From a virus, in the IMG/VR virus record IMGVR_UViG_3300036851_000807, positions 1 through 45,977 of that record: DNA of 45,977 nucleotides; one strand, written 5' to 3'. Shown here piece after piece: positions 25,461-37,462 of this stretch. A model generated the notes under the pieces. The model made no database searches and was not told where the DNA came from. It saw nothing but the letters and a program-made list of their open reading frames with translations. Each line of letters begins with the position of its first letter. Positions within the stretch are counted from its first letter, which is position 1. The position numbers and the translations under genes are program-made.

Positions 25461-26402
25461 ATGGCGATCGACTGGGACACGATCCTGAGCGCACTCTCGG
25501 GCGGCGTGCAGGGTGGAATGCGCGGCTACGCGCAGGGCGAGGAGCTACGCTCGAACCGGCAGCGCGACGATCTCGCACGCCAACGCGAGCAGCGCGAGCA
25601 GAATGCCGACTTCGACCAAGCCAACTATCGCGCGAGTCAGGCACTCAACGAGGCCAACGCCGGGTTCGACAAAAAGCAGGACGCGACGGCGAAGCGTGGT
25701 CGGCTCGCGAAGGGCAACCGCGCGATCCTCGCGACGACGCCGGAAGGGAAGGCCGCGATCGATGCGTTAGGTGCCAACGCCGACGACGTGCTCGGGGAGT
25801 ACGAGGGCTCGGCGATCGACGACATCCTGCGGAACCTGCGCCCACCGCCACCGAAGCGCGAGCCGATCGACCGATTCTCGCCCGAAGGCGTCGCCGCGCA
25901 ACAGCAGATCGACACCGAGCGGGCGAAGCTGCGAACGAAATACCCGACCCCTCGCGCGAACAGTGGGAACGAGGACCGCACGGCGATCACGTCGTTGCTC
26001 GGTGGACTCAACTCACAGATCGACGACGCGCGTTCGGACGTCACGCGACTGAGCAAGCCGATCAGAGAGGCGGCCGAGGCCGGGGTCGACGTCGAGGCCG
26101 CAGACACGGCGGGCCTGGGCGACGCGCGCTCGCGCATGACGACGCTCGGCGGGCAGAGGGACATGGCAACGAAGGCGCTGATGCAGTCGAATCCGGTGCT
26201 CGCGCGACTGTTCGCGTCCGACTCGGCGGGTGCTGCACCGCCGCCGCCGGTCACGCCACCGCCTGCGGGATTCCAGCGGCAAGGCCCGCCGCGTGGCGTC
26301 GCGCAGCCGTTAGGCGAGAAGGAGAAGTTCAAGGCGCGGAGTGATCCGAAGTTCCGCGCGTTCCTCATGCGGAACGGCTACACCGATGGGGATTGGAAGT
26401 GA
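25461..26402 (+). CDS. Internal virion (ejection) protein candidate 3
   Basis: 313 residues with GGGAG 5 bases upstream of the ATG. The N-terminus (MAIDWDTILSALSGGVQGGM) is amphipathic; residues 28-90 are a highly charged, Gln/Arg-rich helix (RQRDDLARQREQREQNADFD); the centre has further helices (AITSLLGGLNSQIDDARSDV) and a Pro-rich linker near 255-285. The C-terminal DPKFRAFLMRNGYTDGDW looks like a short docking motif. It overlaps the giant gene by 4 bases. Role inferred from composition and neighbours. Confidence 0.55.
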   Translation: MAIDWDTILSALSGGVQGGMRGYAQGEELRSNRQRDDLARQREQREQNADFDQANYRASQALNEANAGFDKKQDATAKRGRLAKGNRAILATTPEGKAAIDALGANADDVLGEYEGSAIDDILRNLRPPPPKREPIDRFSPEGVAAQQQIDTERAKLRTKYPTPRANSGNEDRTAITSLLGGLNSQIDDARSDVTRLSKPIREAAEAGVDVEAADTAGLGDARSRMTTLGGQRDMATKALMQSNPVLARLFASDSAGAAPPPPVTPPPAGFQRQGPPRGVAQPLGEKEKFKARSDPKFRAFLMRNGYTDGDWK

Positions 26403-29400
26403 CCGGGCCGATCAACTGGCTCGCTGAGTACGAGCGGCACGAGGAGGAGGAGCGTCGACGCGCGGCCGCGCATCCGCTCGTCACGCCGTCAGCTCGCGCC
26501 GAAGATGCTGGACCGACTGGAAAGCCGGATTGGTTGGCGGAGTTCAGCGCAGCCGAGGGGCCGCGTCGTCTCCCGCCTGCCGTCGTCATGGCGGAGCCGC
26601 CGCGATTCCCGATTCCGACGTTGCCGCCTGCCGTCGTGCAGGCCACTCCGCCCATCGAGCAACCGTTCACGGAGCCCGGTGGCGGTGGCGCGTCGTGGGA
26701 CGACTCGGGCGAAGGGTTCCTCTCGAACCTTGGCTCGGGACTCTACCGTGGGATCCGCAAGGATTTGCCTGAGCAAGTCGGGAACGTGTTGCAGATGTTC
26801 GGCGGCAGTGGCCTGAACCGCGACATCCCCGGCACGGTGCTGCCGATGGCCGGGCGCGCACTCGAGCAATTCGGGAACGAGGCGCCTGACGTGCAGCCGC
26901 GCGTCGGAACGATCGGCGAGGCGGTGCAGTCGCCGTCCGCAGCTCGCGACTACCTCGGCTACCAGATCGGCAACGTGGGCGCGTCGTCGCTCCCGTCGTT
27001 GCTAGCCGCGATCGTGGGCGGGCCGATTGGCGCGACCGCAGCGAGCTACGTGCAGAACACCGGCGACGTGAGGCAGGAGCTGGAGGACTCGGCGCCTAAC
27101 ACGGAGCCCTCGACGCGCGACGCGATCGCGGCGTTGCTCGGCGTGCCCCTCGCGGCGCTCGATCAAGTCACGGAGTCTCGACTCGGTGGGAAGGTCGCGA
27201 AGGCGATCGGCGGGAAGCTCGCGACGAGTGCCGCTGAGCGTGGCGTCGTCGGGACGGCGAAGCGCGTGGCGAAGGAAGTCGGCAAGAGCACGCTGTCGGA
27301 AGGCGTCACCGAAGCGGCGCAGGAAGGCGTCCAGTACCTCGGTGTGCGCGGCGCGACGGGCCAGCCGATCAAGGCGCGCGAGTTGGGAAGCCGGATGCTG
27401 GAGGCGGGCGTTGCTGGCGCTGTGGGCGGTGGCGCGATGGGTGGCGCGACCGAGACGGTGGCCGCAGGAACGGAGGCGCTCCGCTCGCGGCTCAAGCCGC
27501 GTCAGGCAGAGCCGCCAGTCACGCCTGCGCCGATCGTTGACGCGGACGGACGCGATCGCTCGATGCTCGATGCTCGACTCGCGAAGCGTGAGGAACATCG
27601 GGTGAAGGCGCCCGCGCCTGAGATCGACCACGAGTCGGCGCGCGCGGTGCTCGATCGTCGACTGAAGCCGAAGGCGCCAACAACGCCTGACGAGTTGCCG
27701 ATCGCACCGTACACCCCTCACGTGGAGCAGGACAACCGCACCGAGGAGGAGAAGGCCGCACACCGCGCGCGCGTCGGTGGCGAGCTACCGAGTGAACGCC
27801 GGACGCGTCTCGAACGCGAGGCCGTCACGCTCAAGAGCGGCGACGTCGTGGTCGACGAGCAGGGCCAGCGTCATGCGTTCGACGGGTTCGCGCTCCAGAA
27901 CGAGGCACATCCCGACGACGTGACCGTCCTATTCGGCTCGCGCCGTGAGAACGGTCAGATGGTGCGCGAGTTCATTCACGGCAGTACCAGCGGATTCGGC
28001 GAGTTCGAGATCGAGAGGAAGGGCACGGCGACGGAGCCCGCGAAGGCACCCGAGGCGAAGGAGCAGCGCCACGCTGAGCCCGCACAGGCAGGCATCACGG
28101 TCACAGACGAGAGCTTCCATAAGGGCAAGCCAGCGTTCAAGGTGCTGCGCCACGTCGACGACACCGGCAAGGTGCTCGGCGAATTGCGGCTGTACATGAA
28201 CGAGGATGGCACCAGCTCCGGCCAGAGCGTATTCATCGAGAAGGAGCACCAGCGAAAGGGCATCGGTACCGCGCTCTATCGTGAGGCCGAACGGCTTGGA
28301 TTCGACCCGTTGAGCAATACGGGGAAGTCGTCACCGCTCACAGAGGCAGGAAGGGCGCTCACTGACAAGCTCCGCGCGGCGAAGGAGCCAACGAAAGCAC
28401 CGCCACCGAAGAAGCTGGAGATCAACCCGGACTCGCGTTATGCGGGCGAGGAGAACCCCGAGGCGTTGTTCGACGGCTCGGTGGAGCAGGCGCGCGCGCA
28501 CTACAACGACGTGCTCTCCCTCAACGCCGTGCTGGACTCGGGGAAGAAGGCGAACGGCCGGAAGCTGACGCCGAAGGAAGTGACCGAGGCCCGTACGTTG
28601 CGCCAGCAGAGGCAAGACCTTTACCAGTCGACGCTCGGTGAGATCGAGAGCGCGTTCGGGAAAGAGGGACGCGAGCGCGCGAAGTCACTCATCGTGAAGC
28701 CCGCGCCGACACCCCCTTCCGAAAGAGCCCCCTCGAAAGAGGAGGCGAAACCGGAAGCGGCGATCGAGGAGGAGGCGCCGAAAGCTCCGACTCCAATCAC
28801 GAAGGGCACGATGGTTCGCCTGCCCGATGGAAGGGTCGGGCGAGTGTGGACGCTGAAGGACAACGGAACGGCCGAAGTCCGAATGCAGGACGGCGGGATT
28901 CGCACCGCGCACGTCAGCACACTGAAGACCCCGCAGCCTGGCGACGCGAAGCCGAGGGCGGTGACGCCGCAGATCGTGCCGGACGCCTCGAAGGATGTCG
29001 GCCACGTCTTGCCGTCATTCGTCAACGCGCAACGACGCGGCGGCGAGAACCCAAGCACAGGAGTTGCGAATGCGAGCAGCGCACCAGATACTCAGTCAGG
29101 CGACGACGCCGCGACGGTTGCAGGTACTACCGGGGAGCGCGCCGATGACACTCGGCCTGTTCGGGAAAGCGCACGAGGAGAGTCTCAGGGAGAACCGTCC
29201 CGAGGCGTATCAAGCCCTGCAACGGAACGGGACGCTGGCGAGCGTGGTGGCGGAGATCGACCGGGAAGCGCAGCAGACGTTCGAGTCGACGCTGGCCGCG
29301 CTCCTGAAGCAGCACCCGCCGACCGGGACGTACCTCGAGCGAGTCCAGCAGACCGACGCACTCGCGCAGCAGGCGAGGGAGCTGGTGATGGAGGACGTGA

Positions 29401-32400
29401 TCGTTCGGGAGCCAGACCCGGAGAACCCGACGCAGGCGGAGCCCAACGCCGACCGGCTGAGTCCAAGCCAGAACGACGCGACGTAGGCAGTAACTACCGC
29501 CTCACCGACGCCGACGCGATCGGCGCGGGTGGCGCGAAGGGCAAGGCGAGAGGGAACCTCGCCGCGATCCGACTGCTGAAGGAGATCGAGCGCGAAGGCC
29601 GACCGGCGACAGCCGAGGAGCAGGCGACGCTCGTGAAGTACGTCGGGTGGGGTGGAATCCCCCAGGCGTTCAGTCCTGACAACAAGGACTTCGGCCCGAT
29701 CGCGAAGGAACTGCGCGAGCTGCTCACCGACGAGGAGTACGCGGCGGCGCGCGCGTCGACGCTGAACGCGCACTACACGTCGGCCCCTGTGATCCGCGCC
29801 ATTCACGCGGGACTCGCGCGGCTCGGCCTAACGACCGGGCGCGCGCTGGAGCCGTCGATGGGCGTGGGCCATTTCCTCGGGCTCGGGCCGACGTCGTTGC
29901 AGTGGACGGGCGTCGAGCTCGACTCGATCACCGGCAGGCTCGCGAAGCTCCTCTACCCGCAGTCCGACGTGCAGGTGCGTGGCTTCGAGACGGTCGCGAT
30001 GCCGGACAATCTGTTCGACGTCGCGGTGGGGAACGTCCCGTTCGGCAACTTCGGCGTCACCGATCGCGCGTATCCGAAGGAAGTCACCGGGTCGATCCAC
30101 GACTACTTCTTCGCGAAGTCGCTCGATAAGGTGCGGCCCGGTGGGCTCGTCGCGTTCATCACGTCGTCGTTCACGCTCGACAAGCAGAGCGCGGCGATGC
30201 GGAAGTACCTCGGCGAGCGGGCAAACCTCGTTGCTGCGATCCGCCTCCCGAACACAGCATTCGCGGGGAACGCGGGGACTGAGGTCACGACCGATCTCAT
30301 TGTCCTCCAGAAGCGAGAGAAAGGAACGCCGCAGACCGGCGAGACGTTCGTCGACCGCGCGCACATCATGAGTGCTGGCGAGTCGATGTTCGTGAACGAG
30401 TACTACGCGCGGCACCCTGAGATGATGCTCGGGGAGATGCAGCTCGCGGGCACCATGTACCGCGACAAGGCGCCGACGCTCGTCGCTCCCGAAGGGCAGA
30501 ACATCGAGAAGGCGTTAGGTGAGGCGTTCGCGAAGCTGCCCGCTGGCATCTACAAGCCGCGCGCCATCGAGGCGCCTGGCACCCGCAACCCCGGCACCGC
30601 GGAGGCCGAGCTCGTCGGCACCGACGACGACATTCGCGAGGGTGGCTTCCTCGTGCGTGGCGGTCGGTTGCTCCAGCGCGAGGGGAACGAGTTCAAGGCG
30701 TCGAAGCTTGGGAAGGCCGCAGCGGAAAAGGTCTCGCAGCTCGTCGGCATTCGCGATGCGATCCACCGTGTGCTCCAGTCGCAATTCCAGAATCGGAGCG
30801 ACGAGGAGATCACCGCCGAACGCGCGGAGTTGAACCGGCTCTACGATCGGTTCGTGAAGGCGCATGGCCCGATCCGACGCGAGACGCGGACGGAGATCAA
30901 CCGCGAAGGCCGCGCCGAGCCGATCGTCGTCACGCGCTACCCGAACCTGCGCGACTTCCAGGCCGATCCCCGCTGGCCGCTCCTCATGGGGCTGGAGGAG
31001 TACGACGCCGAGACCGACACGGCGAAGAAGACCGACATTCTCCAGCGTCGGGTCATCGAGCCACGCAAGCCCGTCGAGAAGGTCGACACGCCAGCCGACG
31101 CGATCCCGGTGGTGCTCGCGGAGTCGGGCGCGTTCTCTCTCGAGCGAGTGGCGCAACTGTCGGGAACGACGATTGATGCAGCGCGCGAAGCGTTGCGCGG
31201 CGCGATCTACGAGAACCCGACGAGCGGCGTGTTCGAGACGCGCGATCAATACCTGTCTGGCAACGTCCGCACGAAGCTCGCCCAGGCACAGCGCGCAGCG
31301 AAGGGTGACCCTCGCTTCAACGAGAACGTCGAGGCGTTGAAAGGCGCGATCCCCGAGGACTTGCCGCCATCGAAGATCGGCGCGCAGCTCGGCGCACCGT
31401 GGATCCCCACTGAGACGATCGCGCAGTTCGTGCGGGATGTGTTCGGCGCGGGCAACGTAAAGGTGACGTATCTCGCGCGCGAAGCCACGTGGTCGGTCAG
31501 CTACGAGCCCCGCCAGCGCAGCAGCGCGGCGTCGACGACGGAGTTCGGGACCAAGCGCGCGTACGGCACCGAGCTATTGAGCGACGCGCTCAATCTCAAG
31601 CCGACCACGATCTACGATCCCGGCCCCGACGATACCCGCGTCAAGAACGTGCAGGAGACGCTCGCGGCGCAGGAGAAGCAGCAGAAGCTAAAGGACCGAT
31701 TCGCAACGTGGCTGTGGGAGGACGGCGCGCGGGCGACGGCGCTCGCTCGCCTGTACAACGACAGCTACAACAGCATCCGGCTGCGCGACTACGACGGCGC
31801 GCACCTCACGATGCCGGGGGCAGCGTCGCATGTGAACGGGAAGCCGTTCGGTCTGCGACCGCACCAGAAGAATGCCATCTGGCGGATTCTCCAGAGCGGC
31901 AACACGCTGCTCGCGCACGTGGTGGGCTCAGGCAAGACGTACACGATGGTCGCGGCAGGCATGGAGGCGAAGCGCCTCGGGCTCGCGCGGAAGCCGATGT
32001 ATGCGATCCCCAATCACATGCTCGGCCAGTTCTCGCGCGAGTTCCTCGGGCTCTACCCGACAGCGAAGCTGCTGGTGGCGACGAAGGAGGACTTCGCCAA
32101 GGATCGGCGGAAGGCGTTCACTGCACGTATCGCGTCAGAAAACTGGGACGCAATCATCATGACGCACCGCTCGTTCGAGTCGGTCGGCATGAGTCCCGAG
32201 TTCGAGCAGCAGTTCCTCGAACGGGAGCTTGGCGAGCTGGAGCAATCGATTCGCGAGGCGAAGGCCGCGAAGAACCACGACCTGACGAAGCTCATCGAGA
32301 AGGCGAAGAAGAAGCGGACGGCGCGACTCGACACCCTGCGCGCGGCGGAGAAGAAGGATGATCTCCTCCCGTTCGAGGCGCTTGGCGTCGACATGCTCTT

Positions 32401-35400
32401 TGTCGACGAGGCCGACGAGTTCAAGAACCTCAACATCACGTCGAAGCAGCAGGGACTGGGGCTCGAAGGCTCGCAGCGCGCCTTCGATATGTACATGAAG
32501 ACCCAGTATCTCGACTCGCTCAATCCGGGGCGCGGTGTCGTGTTCGCGACGGGCACGCCGATCGCCAACTCGGTGAGCGAGATGTACACCATGCAGCGGT
32601 ATCTCCAGCCGCGACTCATGGGAGAGCGGAGCGTCAGCCACTTCGACGGGTGGAGTGCGACGTTCGGCCAGATGGTGACCGGCATGGAGCTGGCGCCGGA
32701 CGGCAGCGGCTACCGGCAGTCGACCCGGTTCGCGCGATTCCAGAACATGGGCGAGCTGGCGCAGATGTTCCGCTCGGTCGCCGACGTGCAGACGAGCGAG
32801 ATGCTCAACCTGCCGCGCCCGAAGCTGGAGACGGGACAGGCTCAGGTCGTAGCGGTCCCCGCGACGTCGGCGCTCAAACGCTACGTGCAGACGCTCGTCG
32901 AGCGCGCGCGGAAGGTGAAGAACAAGGAGGTTGAACCGGACGAGGACAACCTGCTCAAGATCACCGGCGACGGGCGGAAGGCGGCGCTCGATCTCCGACT
33001 GGTCGGGCTCAGTGGCGGCGAGGGCTCCAAGACCAAGGTCGTCGAGGCGGCGTCCAAGATCGCGCGCATCTATAAAGAGACGACCGCGCTCAAGGGAGCG
33101 CAGATGGTGTTCAGCGATCTCGGCACGCCGAGCGACAAGTTCAACGTCTACGACGAGCTGCGCCTGCACCTCGAGCGGGAGGGCGTGAAGCCCGCAGAGA
33201 TTCGCTACATCCACGACGCCGACACGCAGGCGAAGAAAGACAAGCTGTTCGCGGACGTGAAGGCCGGACGCGTGCGCGTCGTGATCGGGTCGACGCAGAA
33301 GCTCGGCGCCGGGACCAACGTGCAGGATCGTCTCGTGGCGTTGCACCATCTCGATGCACCGTGGCGACCGCGCGACGTCGAGCAGCGCAACGGTAGAATT
33401 CTCCGACAGGGCAACCTGCTGTACGGGGACGCGACGACGCCCGACAGCGAGCGGAAGATTCCGCACGTGTCGATCTTCACGTACGTGACCGAGGGTTCGT
33501 TCGACGCCTACATCTGGCAGGGACTGGAGCGGAAGGCAGGCTTCATCACGCAGGCGCTGACGGCAGGCGTCGAGACGCGCGAGATCGACGACGTGGGCAC
33601 GGTGGAAGTCGACTGGGCGACGGCCAAGGCGATCGCGTCAGGCAACCCGAAGGTGTTGGAGAAGGCGACCATCGACGCCCAGGTGAGCAAACTGGAGCGG
33701 TTACGGCGCGCTCACCAAGACGACGTGTTCGGCGCGGGCCAGAAGATCAAGCTGCTGCCGATGGCGATCGCCGAGTCGAAGGAACGAGCCACCGCATTAC
33801 AGAAGGACGTCGACCAAGCCGAGGACACGGCGGGCGACAGGTACGCGATCACCATCGGCGGGAAGAAGTTCACGAAGCGAGCGGACGCAGGCGCCGAGTT
33901 GAAGAAGGTGCTCGATGCGTTCCTCGGCTCGGTCGCGTCGGTGCCGTTCGAGGAACGGAAGTCGATGTCGAAGAAGCTCGGCACGTTCGCCGGGTTCCCT
34001 CTCCACATCGAGGCGGATGGCTTCTCGATCACCGCGGCGCGGATGATCCTGAATGGCGAGGCGCAGCACGTGGCCGAGGTCACGGCGTCGGATAGCCCCA
34101 TGAGTCTCGCGTTGACGCTGGAGCACGCGCCGAAGGGCATCGCCACGCGGATCGCTCGCATCCATGACGGGATCGAGCAGAACGAGAAGAACCTCGCGCG
34201 ACTGAAGGAGCTGGTCGGCAAGCCCTACGAGCACGCGGCGAAGCTGGCGCAGTTGAAGGAGCGGCAGGCGGCGCTCGACACGGAGCTGCAGGCCGACGCG
34301 ACGCGCTCCGAGGCCGAGGCGAAGAAGGGCGGCGGCATGGTCGACGACTTCCTAACGAGTGAGGAGGGCGCGCTCAAGATCGGCGAGTTGGGTGACCGTC
34401 TGCGCCAGCGTCGACTCGATCGTGAGCCACTCGCCGTGTCGCAGATCGAGGAAGTCGAGGAGCGATTCCAGCGCGCGAAGGGAATCGCCACGCCGACGAT
34501 CCGCGATCGTGTTAGGCAGGCGATTGACGCGGTGAAGCGCGCGGGCCGTCACTTCCCGCACATGGACCCGTCGTCGTCGCCGCTGGCGGCGCGGACGAAC
34601 GAGCTGCTGCTCGAAGTGGAGCACGCGAAGCGCTACGCCGAGGCGATGGCGTACGACAAGATCGCTGCCGTGACGGACGGGTTGACTCAGGGCGAGGTCG
34701 ACCTGTTCACGCGAAAGCTGGTGCTCGACGATCTCATGAAGGACGTCGAGGCCGGACTCTACGAAGGGCGCGACGAGTTGCCGTTCGGGTATCCCGACGC
34801 GGCGGCGGTGCAGCGCGATCTCGATGAAGTCGAAGGCGCAGCCGCGAGTCGGCCGAAGGTCCAGCGTGCGATCGCCGAGCGACAGCGATTCGCGCAGGCT
34901 CTGACGCGTGCGCTGGTCGACGCCGAGCAGCTCAACCCGAAGGTGCTGGAGGACGAGCGGTACTATCACCGTCAGGTGCTCGATCACTTCAACGCGCTCG
35001 CGCATGGCCCGTTGCTCGGGCTCGGCGGTCGCGAGGCGCGCATCAAGCGGAAGGGATTCCAGAAGCAGCGCGTCGGCGGCGGTGACTTCAACACGCGCTA
35101 CCAAGAGGCGGAGTTCGAGTGGGTCGCCCAGGCGTACCGCATCCTGCACATGGTCGGCGCGCAGAAGGAGATTCGCCGTCTCGCGGACATTCAGCCGCAG
35201 TTGAAGGGGGAGGCCAAGAGTCTCAACCTCTCGCGCTACTATGAGAAGGAAGCTGCTGCAGCTGGAATTCCTGACGAGGACATGATCGGGAGCAATGATC
35301 CGCTCCAGCCGTTCAGGAAGCGCATGGGGATGGCGTCGTCGAAGATTCTGTCACTCGCGACGCAGGGGAAGCTCGACGCGCCACAGTACGACGCCGTGAT

Positions 35401-37462
35401 CGAGGCGATGGCCGAGGCGCACGCCGAGTGGAAAGCCGAGATGAAGGAGCGCGACCCCGACGACCGGGAGCCGTTCCGGTTCGATCATCCGCGCTACTTC
35501 GCTCTGCTGAACTACCTCGCGTCGAACGAGGGGCCGGGCGCCATGCCCGCTCGATCCTTCTTCAAGGCCATGCACGAGCGCGAGCAGGCGATTCGCGAGA
35601 CGCTCGGCACCGAGTATAAGGAATGGGAGGACGTGATCCCCGAGGGCTACACCAAGTGGCAGCCGGTGAAGGGCCAGTTCTTCTATCCCGCGCTGACGGT
35701 GCAGGAGCGGGCGCTCGATGCCGCGCTCGAGGGATCGTCGCGTCTTGACGAGGCGTTGCGCTCGGTGCTGGTGCTCGGTGGCCCGAAGGAGACGTGGGTG
35801 ATTCCCGACTACCTCGCGGCGACGATGGACAAGCTCGGCCAGCAGCGCGACATGAGCGCGGTGGAAGCTACGTGGGTCGGCGGGATGCGCTACTGGAAAA
35901 CGATCATGCTCCAGGCACCGACGCGCATCCTGAAATACATCTTCAACAACACGTCGGGCGATCTCGACGCCTCGATCATGTACCCGAAGGTGCTGAAGTA
36001 CGGGCCGGGTGCGGCGCGCGATCTGTTCACCTACATGGTGAAGCGACAGGGAAGTGACGCCCTGAAGCGCGAGATGCAGGAGGCGACGCGGCTAAGGGTG
36101 ATCGACCAAGGCCTAACGGTCGCGGAGATTCCCGACGTCAACGAGCTGCCCGCGTTCGAGCGGTTGGTTGCGTCCGACCCGTTGCACTTCATGGGGCTCG
36201 TGCAGAGCTACTTCAAGCACGCGCGCCTCGTGACGCAGCTGCGAGAGAACATTCTCCGACTCGCGGCATGGCGGCACTTCCGCGCCGAGCTACAGGCGGG
36301 CCGTTCGCCTGGCTTCGGTGCGTCGAACCCGGCGAGCGTGAACGCGCAGACGTCGCCAGCAGGGAAGGCGGCGGTGCTCGCCCGCGACTTGTTAGGCGAC
36401 TACGGCGCGGTGTCGAGCGGTGGCATGTTCATTCGCGACCGCGCGATCCCGTTCTACTCGTGGATCGAGATCAACGCCAAGCGGTACGTGAATCTGTTCC
36501 GCAACATCTCGAAGGAAGGGCACTCGGGCGGTCGGCTCGCTGGCGCAGGAGCGGCGCGGCTCGCGGTGGCCGGGGCAGGCGTCGTGTTCCGCGCGAATGT
36601 GTTCTTCCTGCTCGTGAACCTGTGGAACCACCTGTTGTGGCCGGACGAGGAGGACGAGCTGCGCGGCACCGACGCGCGCACGCTGCATCTGATTCTCGGC
36701 CGAGACGACGACGGGCGCGTCCGTACGGTGCGGATCGAGGGCGCGTTCGCCGACTTCCTCGAGTGGGTGAACCTCTCGGACTACCCGTCTGACATCGCCG
36801 ATCTCGTGAAGGGCACGAAGTCACTGGCCGACCAATTCGTCGAGGGCGCCGAGGGTCCGATCAACCGAGTGATCAACTCGTGGGAGCCGGTGACCAAGAC
36901 GGCGGCGGAGCTGCTGACGGGGCGGAGCATGTACCCGAACGCCTTCAAGCCACGTGTCGTGCGCGATCGCGGCGGGCAGGCGGCGCGCGCGGTGACGTTA
37001 GGCTGGCTCTACGACAAGGTGACGGACAAGCCGATGCGACCGGGCAATCTGGCGACGGACCTGTTGCTCTACCGCACCGATCCCGGCGAGGCGGCGTACT
37101 TCCGCGTGCGCGAGAAAGCAGGCGACTGGCTGGAGCAACAGAACAAAGGGCGCAACCTGGGGAACCCGACCAAGAAGGAGAACGCGCTCTACTACTGGCG
37201 GAAGTCGTTGCAGTGGGGCGAGCCCGAGAAGGCCGAGCGCTGGCTCCAGCGGTACTACGCACTCGGTGGAACGCGGAAGTCGGCAGTGGGGAGCATCAAG
37301 CGGGCCGCTCCGCTGTCGCCGATCGCGGTGCACGACCGACGCCGGTTCCTGGCGTCGCTGACTCCGGAGGAACGCGAGTCGTTGACGCTCGCGGAGCAGT
37401 GGTACCAGCGCACCTATCATGGCGTGCGCCCGTCTCGCCCGGCTGCGGCGAGTGACCGATAG
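26399..37462 (+). CDS. Giant polyvalent virion protein with GNAT-like, DNA-methyltransferase-like and SNF2-like helicase modules (DarB-type)
   Basis: 3687 residues from GTG 26399 (GTGA overlap; TTG 26393 is an alternative). Modules in order: amphipathic, partly hydrophobic N-terminus (to about 360); GNAT-like acetyltransferase domain at about 560-660 with QRKGIGTALY; SH3-like domain at about 800-846; disordered linker at about 871-1031; N6-adenine-methyltransferase-like domain at about 1032-1314 with EPSMGVG (1151-1157) and NVPF (1212-1215) in place of NPPF; SNF2-like helicase at about 1800-2420 with GSGKT (1843-1847), DEAD (2003-2006), ATGTP and QRNGRILRQG around 2329-2338; coiled coil at about 2420-2645; and a long virion-type C-terminus with a membrane-like segment near 3386-3415. 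P1 DarB, an ejected antirestriction protein, shares the methyltransferase-helicase pairing. The last of a run of ejection-type genes, it is probably injected with the DNA. Activities are predicted only. Confidence 0.75.
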   Translation: MTGPINWLAEYERHEEEERRRAAAHPLVTPSARAEDAGPTGKPDWLAEFSAAEGPRRLPPAVVMAEPPRFPIPTLPPAVVQATPPIEQPFTEPGGGGASWDDSGEGFLSNLGSGLYRGIRKDLPEQVGNVLQMFGGSGLNRDIPGTVLPMAGRALEQFGNEAPDVQPRVGTIGEAVQSPSAARDYLGYQIGNVGASSLPSLLAAIVGGPIGATAASYVQNTGDVRQELEDSAPNTEPSTRDAIAALLGVPLAALDQVTESRLGGKVAKAIGGKLATSAAERGVVGTAKRVAKEVGKSTLSEGVTEAAQEGVQYLGVRGATGQPIKARELGSRMLEAGVAGAVGGGAMGGATETVAAGTEALRSRLKPRQAEPPVTPAPIVDADGRDRSMLDARLAKREEHRVKAPAPEIDHESARAVLDRRLKPKAPTTPDELPIAPYTPHVEQDNRTEEEKAAHRARVGGELPSERRTRLEREAVTLKSGDVVVDEQGQRHAFDGFALQNEAHPDDVTVLFGSRRENGQMVREFIHGSTSGFGEFEIERKGTATEPAKAPEAKEQRHAEPAQAGITVTDESFHKGKPAFKVLRHVDDTGKVLGELRLYMNEDGTSSGQSVFIEKEHQRKGIGTALYREAERLGFDPLSNTGKSSPLTEAGRALTDKLRAAKEPTKAPPPKKLEINPDSRYAGEENPEALFDGSVEQARAHYNDVLSLNAVLDSGKKANGRKLTPKEVTEARTLRQQRQDLYQSTLGEIESAFGKEGRERAKSLIVKPAPTPPSERAPSKEEAKPEAAIEEEAPKAPTPITKGTMVRLPDGRVGRVWTLKDNGTAEVRMQDGGIRTAHVSTLKTPQPGDAKPRAVTPQIVPDASKDVGHVLPSFVNAQRRGGENPSTGVANASSAPDTQSGDDAATVAGTTGERADDTRPVRESARGESQGEPSRGVSSPATERDAGERGGGDRPGSAADVRVDAGRAPEAAPADRDVPRASPADRRTRAAGEGAGDGGRDRSGARPGEPDAGGAQRRPAESKPERRDVGSNYRLTDADAIGAGGAKGKARGNLAAIRLLKEIEREGRPATAEEQATLVKYVGWGGIPQAFSPDNKDFGPIAKELRELLTDEEYAAARASTLNAHYTSAPVIRAIHAGLARLGLTTGRALEPSMGVGHFLGLGPTSLQWTGVELDSITGRLAKLLYPQSDVQVRGFETVAMPDNLFDVAVGNVPFGNFGVTDRAYPKEVTGSIHDYFFAKSLDKVRPGGLVAFITSSFTLDKQSAAMRKYLGERANLVAAIRLPNTAFAGNAGTEVTTDLIVLQKREKGTPQTGETFVDRAHIMSAGESMFVNEYYARHPEMMLGEMQLAGTMYRDKAPTLVAPEGQNIEKALGEAFAKLPAGIYKPRAIEAPGTRNPGTAEAELVGTDDDIREGGFLVRGGRLLQREGNEFKASKLGKAAAEKVSQLVGIRDAIHRVLQSQFQNRSDEEITAERAELNRLYDRFVKAHGPIRRETRTEINREGRAEPIVVTRYPNLRDFQADPRWPLLMGLEEYDAETDTAKKTDILQRRVIEPRKPVEKVDTPADAIPVVLAESGAFSLERVAQLSGTTIDAAREALRGAIYENPTSGVFETRDQYLSGNVRTKLAQAQRAAKGDPRFNENVEALKGAIPEDLPPSKIGAQLGAPWIPTETIAQFVRDVFGAGNVKVTYLAREATWSVSYEPRQRSSAASTTEFGTKRAYGTELLSDALNLKPTTIYDPGPDDTRVKNVQETLAAQEKQQKLKDRFATWLWEDGARATALARLYNDSYNSIRLRDYDGAHLTMPGAASHVNGKPFGLRPHQKNAIWRILQSGNTLLAHVVGSGKTYTMVAAGMEAKRLGLARKPMYAIPNHMLGQFSREFLGLYPTAKLLVATKEDFAKDRRKAFTARIASENWDAIIMTHRSFESVGMSPEFEQQFLERELGELEQSIREAKAAKNHDLTKLIEKAKKKRTARLDTLRAAEKKDDLLPFEALGVDMLFVDEADEFKNLNITSKQQGLGLEGSQRAFDMYMKTQYLDSLNPGRGVVFATGTPIANSVSEMYTMQRYLQPRLMGERSVSHFDGWSATFGQMVTGMELAPDGSGYRQSTRFARFQNMGELAQMFRSVADVQTSEMLNLPRPKLETGQAQVVAVPATSALKRYVQTLVERARKVKNKEVEPDEDNLLKITGDGRKAALDLRLVGLSGGEGSKTKVVEAASKIARIYKETTALKGAQMVFSDLGTPSDKFNVYDELRLHLEREGVKPAEIRYIHDADTQAKKDKLFADVKAGRVRVVIGSTQKLGAGTNVQDRLVALHHLDAPWRPRDVEQRNGRILRQGNLLYGDATTPDSERKIPHVSIFTYVTEGSFDAYIWQGLERKAGFITQALTAGVETREIDDVGTVEVDWATAKAIASGNPKVLEKATIDAQVSKLERLRRAHQDDVFGAGQKIKLLPMAIAESKERATALQKDVDQAEDTAGDRYAITIGGKKFTKRADAGAELKKVLDAFLGSVASVPFEERKSMSKKLGTFAGFPLHIEADGFSITAARMILNGEAQHVAEVTASDSPMSLALTLEHAPKGIATRIARIHDGIEQNEKNLARLKELVGKPYEHAAKLAQLKERQAALDTELQADATRSEAEAKKGGGMVDDFLTSEEGALKIGELGDRLRQRRLDREPLAVSQIEEVEERFQRAKGIATPTIRDRVRQAIDAVKRAGRHFPHMDPSSSPLAARTNELLLEVEHAKRYAEAMAYDKIAAVTDGLTQGEVDLFTRKLVLDDLMKDVEAGLYEGRDELPFGYPDAAAVQRDLDEVEGAAASRPKVQRAIAERQRFAQALTRALVDAEQLNPKVLEDERYYHRQVLDHFNALAHGPLLGLGGREARIKRKGFQKQRVGGGDFNTRYQEAEFEWVAQAYRILHMVGAQKEIRRLADIQPQLKGEAKSLNLSRYYEKEAAAAGIPDEDMIGSNDPLQPFRKRMGMASSKILSLATQGKLDAPQYDAVIEAMAEAHAEWKAEMKERDPDDREPFRFDHPRYFALLNYLASNEGPGAMPARSFFKAMHEREQAIRETLGTEYKEWEDVIPEGYTKWQPVKGQFFYPALTVQERALDAALEGSSRLDEALRSVLVLGGPKETWVIPDYLAATMDKLGQQRDMSAVEATWVGGMRYWKTIMLQAPTRILKYIFNNTSGDLDASIMYPKVLKYGPGAARDLFTYMVKRQGSDALKREMQEATRLRVIDQGLTVAEIPDVNELPAFERLVASDPLHFMGLVQSYFKHARLVTQLRENILRLAAWRHFRAELQAGRSPGFGASNPASVNAQTSPAGKAAVLARDLLGDYGAVSSGGMFIRDRAIPFYSWIEINAKRYVNLFRNISKEGHSGGRLAGAGAARLAVAGAGVVFRANVFFLLVNLWNHLLWPDEEDELRGTDARTLHLILGRDDDGRVRTVRIEGAFADFLEWVNLSDYPSDIADLVKGTKSLADQFVEGAEGPINRVINSWEPVTKTAAELLTGRSMYPNAFKPRVVRDRGGQAARAVTLGWLYDKVTDKPMRPGNLATDLLLYRTDPGEAAYFRVREKAGDWLEQQNKGRNLGNPTKKENALYYWRKSLQWGEPEKAERWLQRYYALGGTRKSAVGSIKRAAPLSPIAVHDRRRFLASLTPEERESLTLAEQWYQRTYHGVRPSRPAAASDR
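29070..29486 (+). CDS. Nested (overprinted) gene inside the giant gene, TnpV-like protein
   Basis: 138 residues in a different frame of the same strand, entirely inside the giant gene's disordered linker. ATG 29070 has AGGAG 6 bases upstream; a second candidate, ATG 29145, has GGGGAG 7 bases upstream. The protein looks globular and helical: HEESLRENRPEAYQAL, then NGTLASVVAEIDREAQQTFE, and QQARELVMEDVI. This recalls the TnpV family (short proteins with LRExRPxxY, GxL and IDxxA elements). By hand count over 29145-29483, third codon positions are about 88% GC in this frame but only about 42% GC in the giant frame, so codon selection acts on this small gene. Function unknown. Confidence 0.7.
   Translation: MRAAHQILSQATTPRRLQVLPGSAPMTLGLFGKAHEESLRENRPEAYQALQRNGTLASVVAEIDREAQQTFESTLAALLKQHPPTGTYLERVQQTDALAQQARELVMEDVIVREPDPENPTQAEPNADRLSPSQNDAT

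Follow-up and report, generated by a model that had tools for sequence, protein, structure and literature searches.

Same-strand nested or overprinted gene pairs are known from viruses: in phiX174, and in the Rz/Rz1 pair of phage lambda, two functional frames lie on one strand and the inner product has an internal start. To our knowledge, very few long same-strand nested genes are conserved across bacterial phyla. Two other kinds of system also come close to the locus described here. DarB-like or polyvalent proteins (PMC5512222; phage P1 DarB) are giant chains that carry an N6-adenine methyltransferase and an SNF2-type helicase. Transposon Tn4451 encodes TnpV, for which a passage of PMC3158075 cites a role in excision postulated from similarity to lambda Xis. 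The window analyzed here, the whole 45,977-nucleotide virus record IMGVR_UViG_3300036851_000807, contains a giant polyvalent DarB-like gene (positions 26393–37462, plus strand; 3,689 codons, TTG start as listed; PHROG_10089) and, wholly within it, a 138-codon open reading frame (ORF; 29070–29486, plus strand) for a small protein of the TnpV family. Its codons begin one base after those of the giant gene, i.e., it lies in the +1 frame. Sequence comparisons across related loci make it very probable that this single stretch of DNA encodes two proteins.

A TnpV-family reading frame inside a giant gene

The sequence-only reading of the window had reported a 138-residue ORF with two candidate starts, and recomputation gave the same coordinates and length, with both ATGs present. 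When read from the second ATG, the gene (29145–29486, plus strand) would encode 113 amino acids (MTLGLFGKAH...). ATG 29145 aligns with the N termini of phage-type relatives and ATG 29070 with Firmicutes-type starts. Both starts are preceded by a Shine-Dalgarno (SD) sequence, as had been claimed: AGGAG (29059–29063, plus strand) lies 6 nt upstream of ATG 29070, and GGAG (29134–29137, plus strand) lies 7 nt upstream of ATG 29145. Over 29145–29483, the GC content at codon positions 1, 2, and 3 of the small frame is 0.73, 0.42, and 0.88 (position-3 GC of the small ORF, 0.85–0.88), and position-3 GC of the giant frame is 0.43, compared with 0.84 across the whole giant gene; the earlier hand count had given about 88% and 42% for the third positions of the two frames. 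The giant frame contains no ATG, GTG, TTG, or CTG codon within 29012–29572, which bears out the claim that it has no usable start ahead of the methyltransferase domain.

The small protein had been likened to TnpV-type proteins, and profile searches uphold this. It matches Pfam family PF14198 (TnpV of Tn4451/Tn6104-type elements) with an E-value of 2.2e-12 and 47.3 bits (curated cut-off 27) over profile positions 20–111 of 111, and also PHROG_24764 (E 2.6e-7). When the window was left out of a TnpV profile, the real ORF scored 52.4 bits against it, and none of 2,000 synonymous reshufflings of the giant frame exceeded 3.2 bits; the likeness to TnpV therefore does not arise as a by-product of the giant sequence. 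In an alignment of 40 sequences, the TnpV core (LGKYG..R..YLKEHR...Y..LLL.G.L..HL.EID..A ... QAEEIVL.ELIY) is retained in the window with substitutions. All 40 TnpV-type nested proteins match PF14198 (best E-value 1.6e-43; window 3.7e-12 in this set) and thus belong to the same sequence family. The shorter phage-type nested proteins are divergent, with 6 of 25 matching Pfam at E < 0.01, and the phage-type and TnpV-type alignments match each other at the profile level with a probability of 97.5. An AlphaFold model of the nested protein has four helices (pLDDT 87). A search of a viral fold library with the small protein returned one 144-residue phage protein (E 0.09, probability 1.00); neither NCBIfam nor PADLOC offers a model of the small protein.

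Both frames in related phages and mobile elements

Related loci were sampled by searches with the methyltransferase domain of the giant gene, which has homologues in 38 viral and 80 genome contigs, and annotated phages were added. Nested copies were detected upstream of the methyltransferase with a profile of the nested protein. A detectable nested-type ORF was present in 97 loci, with GC contents from 30% (L133) to 70%, and 95 of them have it within the giant ORF and, without exception, in the +1 frame. The arrangement occurs in phages PEp14, Pavtok, Stean, SopranoGao, LASTA, Itty13, VvAW1, POI1126, Atu_ph08, and Mwe-JY07, more weakly in BcepIL02, and in genomes whose record titles name Clostridia, Paenibacillus, Synergistota, Bacteroidaceae (L091), Verrucomicrobiia (L150), and Bryobacterales (L135). 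By these detections, the nested architecture is common to phages and mobile elements of several bacterial phyla and is not the peculiarity of one phage. In the annotated phage regions examined, only the giant coding sequence (CDS) is annotated over the nested ORF; the annotations of Itty13 at this place are on the opposite strand.

Some loci carry further ORFs of this kind. In the four related loci L029–L032, about 50–300 nt upstream of the methyltransferase, inspection by eye shows a diverged nested ORF in the same place and frame that the TnpV-type profile misses; L075 has, likewise by eye, a diverged and profile-undetected one at the equivalent place. Pseudomonas phage 8P (L069) and Dolichospermum phage Dfl-JY45 (L070) have +1-frame ORFs at the nested position with no detectable TnpV similarity, which are possibly diverged or replaced nested genes. 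L014 and L139 each have a second TnpV-like ORF in the same element; it lies about 5.4 kb downstream of where the methyltransferase starts and is not part of the giant gene.

To score openness, synonymous codons were drawn for each nested protein at local codon usage, and the giant frame was examined for stops. The giant frame is open in 95 of 95 loci, and the third frame in 0 of 95. With the nested protein taken as fixed, the probability of an open giant frame is below 5e-4 in many low-GC loci, and multiplying naively over the 95 loci gives 1e-220. As a control, TnpV copies were collected by Pfam match in bacterial genomes, part of them from genomes with a known nested copy and part by a class-wide draw. 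Nested and standalone copies are about equally common in this sample (27 versus 28). Over the core, 27 of the 27 nested copies, all with an ArdC-like N-terminal domain, have the +1 host frame open, versus 1 of the 28 standalone copies. The two sets of results argue that both frames are kept open by selection across the relatives. There are four apparent exceptions (L013, L074, L079, and L208). In L079, TnpV is still in +1 relative to the N-terminal domain, and in L208 that domain is truncated; L074 is treated below.

A start preceded by an SD sequence (at least four matching nucleotides, spacing of 4–13 nt) was found in 82 of the 95 loci, often as AAGGAG 8 nt before an ATG located 75–81 nt ahead of the core. 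When five matching nucleotides were required and the search was confined to the 135 nt preceding the core, 74 of 95 loci (78%) retained an SD-start, versus 5.7% of control windows. From the nested start to the methyltransferase, the giant frame lacks any SD-preceded start in 28 of 31 phage-type loci, the window among them; the simplest account of how the methyltransferase is made is therefore that ribosomes read through the overlap. A restart of the giant frame at a start codon after TnpV was rejected on this count and on the lack of any giant-frame start there in the window.

Because the collections searched contain no close relative of the window, selection was measured in other lineages; searches of viral contigs with the small protein alone and with the N-terminal 892 residues of the giant product returned no relatives, and a plasmid search with one Firmicutes nested TnpV gave no match. 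In 20 disjoint pairs of relatives, substitutions at giant codon positions 1, 2, and 3 run at 0.249, 0.163, and 0.115 in the overlap, compared with 0.222, 0.178, and 0.381 in the flanks (nominal Fisher p 8e-59). Pairs of Pavtokvirus, Lastavirus, and Lessievirus phages show the same shift, with a ratio of position-1 to position-3 changes of 76:43 in the overlap versus 137:738 (odds ratio 9.5). In the phage pairs, changes synonymous in the nested frame and nonsynonymous in the giant frame occur at 2.22 times expectation, and changes nonsynonymous in both at 0.54. About 27 nested-synonymous changes creating a stop in the giant frame were expected in the 20 pairs and none was seen, partly by construction, as both members of each pair are open. 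This displacement of substitutions from giant position 3 to position 1 indicates that the nested protein is under purifying selection. The comparison of conservation by frame across related phages, which the sequence-only reading had called for, thus came out clearly for the nested frame and gave mixed results for giant-frame residues: the observed-to-expected ratio of nested-nonsynonymous changes is 0.54 when the giant residue also changes versus 0.81 when it does not in the phage pairs, and 0.82 versus 0.64 in the 20 pairs. Hydrophobic residues make up 10.9% of the linker versus 31.5% of the catalytic part in pooled relatives. Taken over the relatives, it is the openness and hydrophilic composition of the giant linker that appear to be kept, and its exact residues look hardly constrained. 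Nested and methyltransferase distances are correlated (Mantel r 0.81; 0 of 999 permutations), which fits a long co-inheritance of the two.

The direction of overprinting had been given as a small gene overprinted inside the giant one, and here the relatives point the other way. TnpV is probably the older frame, with the giant frame later extended over a TnpV gene already in place, because TnpV has standalone copies and a wide family, and the Gly/Asp/Glu/Arg linker occurs where TnpV is nested. In two metagenome-assembled genomes (Oscillospiraceae and Eisenbergiella; L115 and L132), the N-terminal ArdC-like domain lies almost directly before the methyltransferase, with no nested TnpV and, in place of the Gly/Asp/Glu/Arg linker, a short Pro/Ala-rich one. 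These loci represent a natural deletion of the nested gene. Homologues that keep the linker and carry stops in the small frame, named beforehand as the observation that would speak against an overprinted gene, did not turn up; the two loci that clearly lack the small ORF lack the linker too. The Gly/Asp/Glu/Arg linker of the giant is best understood as the shadow that an older TnpV gene casts in the giant frame.

Proposed explanation and alternatives

We propose that ribosomes translating the giant gene read 29069–29500 as a hydrophilic, probably disordered linker, and that other ribosomes initiate at the internal SD/ATG (29070 or 29145) in the +1 frame and would produce a four-helix TnpV-family protein of 113–138 residues, whose codons would dictate the linker sequence. 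Extension of the giant frame across TnpV would have joined the upstream domains to the methyltransferase-helicase. Both products would be made in infected cells. The TnpV-like protein may serve as an accessory partner of the giant protein in loading, delivery, or DNA engagement during early anti-restriction, and nesting may secure co-expression and co-inheritance in mosaic mobile elements. As a whole, dual coding with an older TnpV that became an accessory partner is the explanation that we favor with good confidence. Its functional part, taken by itself, is tentative: that the nested gene stays inside the giant gene across phages and mobile elements makes a partner of the polyvalent anti-restriction protein a serious candidate, at somewhat less than even odds. 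The broader proposition that ArdC/DarB-type giants are two-product genes, each also encoding a TnpV partner on which early anti-restriction or delivery of the giant depends, is a shade more doubtful still.

The strongest competitor leaves dual coding intact and replaces the partner function: the nested TnpV could be an excision or recombination directionality factor parked in the giant gene. The excision role postulated for Tn4451 TnpV (PMC3158075) and the integrase encoded in the window speak for it. On the other side, the nested copies sit in DarB/ArdC anti-restriction-type genes and co-vary with the methyltransferase, and no tie between nesting and a recombinase turned up, though recombinase neighbors were not surveyed. 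We consider this reading unlikely, yet the most credible of the alternatives.

Several points weigh against dual coding itself. The 95 loci were chosen as lying inside a giant ORF, with 2 of the 97 candidates excluded; of these two, at least one (L074) likewise shows no giant-frame stop across TnpV, a stop following about 125 nt later. Loci and pairs are related by descent, so that the p-values and the probability product given above are overstated. For the window taken alone, an open giant frame has a probability of 0.16 of arising by chance once the nested protein is given; the window by itself gives no proof that the giant frame is kept open, and that proof comes from the relatives. Selection on the giant-frame amino acids in the overlap appears weak (0.54 for changes nonsynonymous in both frames in the phage pairs, 0.82 in the 20 pairs). 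Sequence and fold searches of solved structures (PDB) with the small protein found nothing convincing. Finally, the giant gene of Sinorhizobium phage PBC5 (L183, AF448724) is broken by a change of frame just before the nested ATG, about 883 nt ahead of where the methyltransferase starts, and its N-terminal half is in frame with the TnpV-like part.

PBC5 also speaks for a reading in which ribosomes reach the nested frame by frameshifting from the giant gene and make a truncated product ending in the TnpV domain; PHROG_938 ("endolysin", 2185 positions) likewise has the TnpV-like protein as its end. Against this stand the SD-starts in 82 of 95 loci and the nested-frame stop just upstream of the ATG in some phages, e.g., PEp14, where the nested frame is open from −371 and the ATG lies at −365, only a few codons on. 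PBC5 is the lone exception to the arrangement, and its frame change may be a sequencing error. Frameshifting thus seems very unlikely.

Slightly less probable again is that only the small gene is translated, between separate upstream and methyltransferase genes, and that the giant frame is open by chance in a GC-rich genome. The value of 0.16 for the window and a low-complexity linker with weakly constrained amino acids would suit it. It is countered by the giant frame being open in every one of the 95 loci, down to 30% GC, by the standalone control, by an upstream ArdC-like domain in frame with the methyltransferase in 66 of 67 loci, and by the absence of SD-preceded giant restarts in nearly all phage-type loci. 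A GC artefact was likewise rejected. The opposite proposal, that only the giant frame is real and the small ORF is a by-product of a hydrophilic linker in which T is rare at codon position 2, leaving the +1 frame free of stops, gains from the probability of an open nested frame given the giant amino acids, often 0.2–0.9. It fails to account for the gap between the reshuffled and real TnpV scores, for overlap substitutions that follow the nested frame, and for conserved SD-starts, and is hardly credible. A chance ORF was rejected as well, the real TnpV match standing far above those of the reshuffled sequences. That two compensating sequencing indels shifted an in-frame TnpV domain out of frame might be imagined for a single contig from a virus collection, PBC5 showing that deposits can be frameshifted here, but the recurrence of the +1 arrangement in independent assemblies and isolate phages (PEp14, Pavtok, Stean, SopranoGao, LASTA, Itty13, VvAW1, POI1126, and Atu_ph08) refutes it as a general explanation and leaves it a negligible probability. 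Openness, selection, and start signals in the relatives support the original proposal that both proteins seem to be made from the same DNA.

The giant gene and comparison with known systems

PHROG_10089 (DarB-like antirestriction) matches the giant product over 29501–32500 with an E-value of 0. The overprinted stretch (29069–29500, plus strand) is a low-complexity Gly/Asp/Arg/Ala/Ser/Glu linker in the giant frame, with no Pfam match and no start codon. It is followed by an N6-adenine methyltransferase domain (29501–30340, plus strand; Eco57I-type Pfam match) and then by an SNF2/DEAD helicase part (31850–33412, plus strand; PF04851 (ResIII), PF00270, and PF00271 (Helicase_C)), so that the giant product combines an N6-adenine methyltransferase and an SNF2-type helicase in one chain. 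Upstream of the overlap, at 28115–28306, there is a GNAT acetyltransferase domain (PF00583, E 3e-6), and the N-terminal part (26393–29068) matches virion-structural and virion-RNA-polymerase PHROGs, consistent with a giant protein that is carried in the virion. The source of the record is probably a temperate tailed phage, because terminase, portal, major head protein, RecE-like exonuclease, and integrase genes are also encoded.

In loci L072–L151, the giant gene begins differently, with a conserved N-terminal domain of about 300 residues (YKYPF..Q.LI.AQRPDATACA...WN...RGSKGIAL); two proteins were scanned against Pfam, and neither gave a match for it. When the predicted structure of this domain (pLDDT 94) was compared with the PDB, the three best matches were all to the R388 antirestriction protein ArdC (6sna and 6i89 among the matches; probability 1.00, E about 2e-3), and on this model the N-terminal domain of Firmicutes-type relatives is ArdC-like. 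The ArdC-type domain was seen in these relatives, whereas the N terminus of the window's giant matches virion-type PHROGs and a GNAT domain. Phage P1 darB starts at the methyltransferase part and hence has no room for a nested gene. Neither TnpV nor the words overlapping and linker appear in the paper that defined polyvalent proteins (Iyer et al., 2017, PMC5512222), and the open-licence literature yielded no report of this TnpV/giant-gene overlap.

The arrangement explains why a widespread class of giant anti-restriction proteins contains an otherwise puzzling Gly/Asp/Glu/Arg linker, and it suggests a possible partner protein in phage and mobile-element counter-defense. Databases miss the nested gene, as the annotated phage regions examined carry the giant CDS only. 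If the broader proposition on two-product giants is true, a two-component counter-defense system has escaped notice, since fully nested genes are not called by annotation pipelines.

Classical TnpV is a standalone gene; the copy in the window lies instead within a phage gene of several thousand codons. Nested and standalone copies of one domain family form a natural control and suggest which frame is older. Overlapping genes as such are known, and what is new here is a cross-phylum nested gene with a standalone family, whose shadow is a linker in a giant anti-restriction protein. Compared with the overprinted pairs of viruses, the TnpV/giant pair spans phages and bacterial mobile elements of several phyla, and, as the nested partner also exists as a standalone family, the linker of the host protein would be the younger product.

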